Below, piece by piece: positions 41,157 through 41,355 of a stretch of 44,706 bases of DNA (positions are counted from its first letter, which is position 1; each line of letters opens with the position of its first letter). The stretch covers positions 1 through 44,706 of the forward strand of contig MGTO01000132.1 of assembly GCA_001799485.1 (NCBI GenBank). The letters run 5' to 3'. The notes beneath the pieces were generated by a model, which made no database searches, was not told the DNA's origin, and saw only the letters and a program-made list of their open reading frames with translations. The DNA is from Desulfuromonadales bacterium GWC2_61_20 (lineage in GTDB: Bacteria > Desulfobacterota > Desulfuromonadia > Desulfuromonadales > UBA2197). Both the position numbers and the translations under genes were made by a program.

Positions 41157-41197
41157 AAAAAACGATCAGCCCCACCCGGACGATCCGGCTGGGGCTG
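41157..41197 (-). terminator. Second intrinsic terminator in the nifH leader
   Basis: On the minus strand CAGCCCCA (41197-41190) pairs with TGGGGCTG (41174-41167), with a GC-rich inner stem, followed by ATCG and six U (41162-41157). It is about 50 nt before the nifH start codon, so nifH transcription must pass it. Confidence 0.88.
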
Positions 41198-41227
41198 CAT
41201 TGCCCGACGACTCCGCCATGGAGTCGT
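41192..41227 (-). promoter_or_regulatory. ANTAR-type double hairpin, module 2 of nifH leader
   Basis: In the RNA, P1 (41227-41207) has arms ACGACUCC/GGAGUCGU around the 5-nt loop AUGGC. After 1 nt, P2 (41205-41192) is GGGC-AAUGCA-GCCC with a hexaloop that has A1 and G4. The P2 3' arm lies inside the 5' arm of the terminator at 41157-41197, so forming P2 should prevent termination. The P1 loop is one base short of the classical hexaloop but keeps A1 and G4. Confidence 0.6.
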
Positions 41228-41284
41228 GCGTAATCTCATCGTCTCACCGGCAGCACAAACGGGCGCGCGGTATCTTGTTTAAAT

Positions 41285-41320
41285 AGAAAACGCCCGGGGA
41301 GAAATATCTTCCGCGGGCGT
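41285..41320 (-). terminator. First intrinsic terminator in the nifH leader
   Basis: On the minus strand ACGCCCG (41320-41314) pairs with CGGGCGT (41296-41290), followed by UUUUC (41289-41285 region). The stem is 7 bp, with a long AU-rich loop, so it is weaker than the second terminator. Confidence 0.65.
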
Positions 41321-41355
41321 CATTGCCTGTCATCCATCGGCACCGCTGTGTGCCG
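41316..41355 (-). promoter_or_regulatory. ANTAR-type double hairpin, module 1 of nifH leader
   Basis: In the RNA, P1 (41355-41338) is CGGCAC-ACAGCG-GUGCCG: a perfect 6-bp stem and a hexaloop with A1 and G4. After 10 nt, P2 (41327-41316) is GGC-AAUGAC-GCC, again a hexaloop with A1 and G4. The P2 3' arm and loop overlap the 5' arm of the terminator at 41285-41320. This is the arrangement bound by ANTAR-domain response regulators, which favour P1-P2 and so disrupt the terminator. Confidence 0.65.

Follow-up and report, generated by a model that had tools for sequence, protein, structure and literature searches.

Nitrogenase is costly to the cell, and its control in the Desulfuromonadales has, to our knowledge, been little studied at the RNA level. 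In Geobacter sulfurreducens, the GnfK/GnfR system reportedly governs nif operons, with a REC-ANTAR regulator acting by antitermination behind sigma-54-type promoters. The genes of that system are gnfR (GSU2822) and gnfK (GSU0941) (PMC7962754). According to the main text of PMC3369931, three nitrogenase units of Pelobacter carbinolicus have ANTAR RNAs, and six units of Desulfotomaculum acetoxidans have 13 between them, so more than one per unit had already been seen there. ANTAR control of nif operons is already published, and its basic mechanism is known. The locus described here resembles the GnfR system in that a sigma-54-type promoter is followed by terminators in a nif leader, and it shares with the Pelobacter and Desulfotomaculum RNAs, as the main text of PMC3369931 presents them, a dual hairpin that lies before nitrogen genes and overlaps an intrinsic terminator.

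The window, by which we mean the whole stretch of 44,706 nucleotides that was analysed, is one (G000:C132) of the 163 contigs that make up a Desulfuromonadales genome of 2.78 Mb, which is 79% complete. Its nitrogenase operon lies on the minus strand and comprises nifH (40228–41107; TIGR01287, 476 bits against a cut-off of 394) and, downstream, nifD (38693–40210; TIGR01282, 770 bits) and nifK (37169–38638; TIGR01286, 658 bits). Translation of nifH starts at 41107, next to a ribosome binding site, AGGAGGA (41114–41120, minus strand). A sigma-54 promoter with −24/−12 elements, TGGCACGGCCCATGC (41387–41401, minus strand), predicts a transcript start at about 41376, and the same motif, TGGCAY-N5-NTGC, is also present upstream of most related nifH leaders. 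Elsewhere in the window, nifE and nifN are fused into a single reading frame of 915 aa (30361–33108, minus strand; 1,618 bits with the NifEN model). Downstream of the promoter, the nifHDK leader holds two P1–P2–terminator modules, which we read as two successive ANTAR-responsive transcription attenuators, with a probability of about 0.86.

Every element of the two modules proposed in the earlier note was found in its place on the minus strand. Module 1 opens with the P1 hairpin CGGCAC-ACAGCG-GUGCCG (41338–41355), identified by sequence, folding and covariation in 32 sequences. A 10-nt linker separates it from the P2, or antiterminator, hairpin GGC-AAUGAC-GCC (41316–41327; sequence and folding), and the module closes with a covarying intrinsic terminator, ACGCCCG...CGGGCGU followed by UUUUCU (41285–41320, stem 41320–41290; −18.3 kcal/mol). 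In module 2, the P1 hairpin ACGACUCC-AUGGC-GGAGUCGU (41207–41227), with a loop of the form A-N-G-R-Y, was established by covariation and loop conservation in 38 sequences; it is followed after 1 nt by the P2 hairpin GGGC-AAUGCA-GCCC (41192–41205; sequence and folding) and by the intrinsic terminator CAGCCCCA...UGGGGCUG (41157–41197, stem 41197–41167; −24.6 kcal/mol), which covaries as well. Terminator 2 is not textbook, since its U6 run (41162–41157) begins only past a 4-nt spacer. A simple built-in promoter/terminator scan of the window missed all leader elements, the two terminators because of their long loops. Searches against curated RNA families (Rfam) returned only tRNAs in the window and no convincing family in related leaders, and a known Rfam family was rejected as the identity of the leader.

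In both modules the 5′ arm of the terminator begins within P2, as had been proposed; the two structures have 5 nt in common in module 1 (41316–41320) and 6 nt in module 2 (41192–41197), and on paper they are mutually exclusive. Holding P2 closed costs 6.9 kcal/mol in module 1 and 11.1 kcal/mol in module 2. Folding energies thus favour the terminators, and an outside factor would be needed for P2 to win. The leader fold was more stable than all 200 of 200 shuffles (z = −5.3). Two P2-coupled terminators arose in 1 of 5,000 dinucleotide shuffles of the leader, and none of the 5,000 gave two modules that both had a P1. When the whole leader is folded to minimum energy, the P1 region of module 1, CCGGCACACAGCG, pairs with the inter-module stretch GUGCUGCCGG (41240–41355, minus strand), possibly as a later rearrangement.

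The arrangement was followed through nifH leaders from 70 genomes of the same order, using a detector that requires P2 to be coupled to a terminator. The A1/G4 pattern of P2 was a selection criterion, so its invariance is not independent evidence; the letters of the P1 loop played no part in selection. By detector counts, in which individual calls are unverified, 46 leaders contain two modules, 23 contain one and 1 contains none, and 350 shuffles of the leaders gave 11 single modules and no doubles. By eye, some second modules can be seen that do not obey the detector rules (L094), and a few calls are possibly wrong the other way (L106, L118). The double leader occurs in 12 of 18 families; being common to many relatives across the order, the arrangement probably represents a real and long-kept control.

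Covariation in related genomes had been set beforehand as a refuting test, and both the P1 and the terminator stems of the two modules covary. Double changes affect 7 of 8 P1 pairs and 8 of 12 terminator pairs in module 2 (38 sequences), and 3 of 5 P1 pairs and 2 of 5 terminator pairs in module 1 (32 sequences). The closing pair of the module 2 P1, for example, alternates between C-G and A-U, with both sides changing together. In all four tests, none of 500 shuffles reached the covariation score for either module, and the signal was lost once the partners were slid out of register. The P2 arms are near-invariant and share columns with the terminator; their covariation is thin and, because they hardly vary, P2 draws its support mostly from conservation.

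These data also bear on whether the hairpins could be tandem terminators or processing sites of the ordinary kind, with hexaloops that arose by chance, which might, for instance, end read-through from the amidotransferase gene that lies upstream of the leader on the strand shared with nifHDK (41510–42229). Energies alone would suit this explanation, as they favour the terminator folds, but it does not account for P1 stems and loops that are conserved although they lie outside the terminators, and the site is downstream of a sigma-54 promoter. Moreover, when alpha-, beta- and gammaproteobacterial nifH loci were searched with the module models, the one match was weak (17.5 bits) and fell outside the nifH leader. 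We consider ordinary terminators very improbable.

A further conserved element, AUC-AANGNN-GAU-GCCGCC, was observed in 43 of the 70 nifH leaders (L086–L147, for example L103 and L092), downstream of terminator 2 and ahead of the ribosome binding site. The element, a hairpin with an A1/G4 hexaloop but no terminator, is absent from the window; in the order, many matches to it sit just upstream of nifH. It had no Rfam match in the leaders tested, and RNAalifold returned no pairs for it, partly since the search pattern fixed its core. Pairing of its GCCGCC with the module 2 P1 was considered and dropped, as leaders lacking GGCGG in P1 also carry GCCGCC.

The two modules are of unlike design. The earlier note had described three hexaloops with A1 and G4, and in the window A1 and G4 are indeed present in both P2 hexaloops and in the P1 of module 1. 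The P1 of module 2 departs from this pattern: its loop has five bases, and its AUGGC fits A1/G4 only by chance in the window's species. Among 38 sequences, A1 and G3 are each invariant (38/38), whereas position 4 holds either G or A and position 5 mostly C or U. The P1 loop of module 1 carries G4 in all 31 of its six-base loops and has A or G at position 1 among relatives. The P1–P2 linker measures 7–21 nt in module 1 and 1–3 nt in module 2. Set against the published hexaloop rule and linker range of 2–25 nt (PMC8164766), module 2 has a P1 loop outside the rule and a linker at the edge of the range.

Models built on one module barely recognise the other, which makes the pair old: the module 1 model scored only 7.5 bits on module 2, and the module 2 model scored 17.7 bits on module 1 against 76.1 bits on its own module. 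These low cross-model scores led us to reject a recent duplication of one module. Each module is closer to its counterpart in other families than to its neighbour in the leader, so that describing the leader as a duplicated checkpoint, as had been done, is misleading. On sequence grounds, the two modules are anciently distinct and not a recent copy.

Such differences raise the question of whether only module 1 is under ANTAR control, with module 2 working in part independently, as an attenuator or fail-safe terminator, and another factor reading its five-base P1 loop, so that the leader would act as an AND gate of two signals. The conserved departures of the module 2 P1 (five loop bases with A1/G3 invariant, a linker of 1–3 rather than 7–21 nt), its own covarying stem and the membership of the modules in distinct sequence families would all fit such a gate. 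However, the P2 of module 2 is a canonical A1/G4 hexaloop that overlaps the terminator just as in module 1, the module 2 P1s of some relatives could be read as slightly larger A/G loops, and no second RNA-binding regulator was identified. We regard a two-signal gate as fairly unlikely and retain ANTAR control of both modules.

Similar attenuators occur at other genes. In the window's genome, the module 1 model found further single sites before a fixA/etfB-like gene (E = 4e-11), nifV (1e-4) and glnB (0.026), each behind a −24/−12 promoter; in ten relatives, sites precede nifH, nifB, nifV, nifO-like, amtB and modC-like genes (names assigned by eye from translations). The glnB leader of the window's genome (L168:3500–3660, minus strand) has an extra upstream copy, GGGCGUCUUUG, able to pair with the P2 stem GGGCAAAGACGCCC, which suggests a candidate three-way switch before the PII gene. 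No nifB was found in the window's own genome, an absence attributable to its incomplete (79%) assembly. Some nifB leaders of relatives, including those of the window's family, carry a second hexaloop–terminator element with no obvious P1 (L228–L230, L232, L233, L235–L239, L244, L248, L251, L252). This element reads AGC-AAGGGC-GCU, or nearly so, and a terminator-like hairpin comes after it; where examined, the element lies downstream of a module 1-like attenuator.

The nifB leaders bear on how the regulator might move along a double leader. EutV has been proposed to bind P1 and P2 successively, with a single hexaloop as its minimal target (PMC8934654), and the several nifB leaders in which the second attenuator is a hexaloop P2 with a terminator and no obvious P1 would suit a handover, in which a single ANTAR dimer would load onto the first P1, remain close to the polymerase and then pass to the second P2. 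By contrast, module 2 of nifH retains its own P1, which is strongly conserved and would be needless under handover, and lengthening the EutV P1–P2 linker by 20 nt abolishes antitermination (PMC8934654), whereas about 120 nt separate the two modules of the leader; handover at the leader is quite unlikely in our estimation. A processive form of ANTAR antitermination, in which the two modules would have different functions within a single machine, we judge unlikely too: module 1 would load the dimer, and the same dimer, handed on along the RNA, would get past the second attenuator, whether this has a five-base P1 loop, as in nifH, or no obvious P1, as in nifB. We continue with two modules that each respond to the regulator.

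Whether the genome encodes an ANTAR-domain protein had been named as a check that could refute the proposal, and one such protein is present: a REC-ANTAR regulator of 186 aa, with a receiver and an ANTAR domain (75.7 bits), at G000:C103. Its gene stands first in a row with draT and draG, and nifV is oriented divergently from it (L167:1171–3537, minus strand; 3862–5001, plus strand). The adjoining REC-ANTAR and draTG genes set transcriptional and post-translational control of nitrogenase side by side. The regulator aligns with EutV (6wsh) over its length (E = 2.4e-32). When the EutV RNA contacts were mapped by eye on the printed alignment, with a numbering offset of two, R142, K143, K147, K149, E160, Y164, M172 and R175 were kept, and R168, N173 and R177 differed. 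Single replacements of EutV E160, Y164 and M172 cut binding most (PMC8934654). A search for a cognate kinase of the GnfK type yielded two HisKA_2 kinases in the genome. Across genomes of the order, an ANTAR gene was found in 69 of 72 with nifH versus 37 of 64 without it, a test that ignores genome relatedness, and it lies within 20 kb of nifH in 37 genomes of the order. No ANTAR protein was found in the other three of the 72 nifH genomes, one of which is 99% complete.

We infer from the sequence how the leader may work in the cell, from termination and ANTAR binding to phosphorylation as the signal and the steepness of the response. Polymerase leaving the sigma-54 promoter would make the module 1 P1 and then its P2. 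With no active regulator, the overlapping terminator would displace P2 and transcription would end near 41285. Under nitrogen-fixing conditions the REC-ANTAR regulator would be phosphorylated and dimerise, and the dimer would bind P1 and then P2, blocking formation of the terminator; the EutV model of successive visits to P1 and P2, a single hexaloop being the minimal target (PMC8934654), could explain each module in this way. Module 2 would repeat the test near 41157, so that nifHDK would be reached only by polymerases that clear both modules. By the argument made for tandem riboswitches (PMC9481103), two attenuators in series multiply residual leakage and steepen the response if equally sensitive. 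What the cell probably gains is very low leakage of a costly operon together with a steeper response than a single attenuator would give, and the retention of a double checkpoint across the order suggests selection for low leakage or for a sharp threshold. The unlike pair also offers a natural test of ANTAR loop choice, six versus five bases, and of independent versus sequential action.

What is new here is the order-wide double attenuator in nifH leaders, and also in some nifB leaders, together with the pairing of two unlike modules, one with a five-base A1/G3 P1 loop. The literature searched, whose coverage is incomplete, held no text on two modules in one nifH leader or on a conserved five-base P1 loop. 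Compared with the GnfR system, the regulator of the window's genome is alike in domain order and nif-linked context and differs in sitting with draT–draG and nifV; the Geobacter-type nifH leaders that were fetched have one module, whereas those of the window's order mostly have two, of unlike design. The main text of PMC3369931 does not state two modules per leader, and the text searched mentions neither order-wide conservation nor a five-base P1 loop. The eut attenuators of Enterococcus faecalis (EutV/EutW), as presented in the text searched of PMC3369931 and PMC8934654, share the A1/G4 hexaloops of P1 and P2, the overlap of P2 with the terminator, the phosphorylated REC-ANTAR dimer and the occurrence of several attenuators at one locus; the four eut attenuators are upstream of four different genes, whereas here two stand in series before one start codon. 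Tandem TPP riboswitches (PMC9481103), described as pseudo-cooperative, likewise place two independent expression platforms in series under one signal, with a steeper response predicted. In the nifH leader, by comparison, the sensor would be a protein rather than a metabolite, and the two platforms differ in structure.
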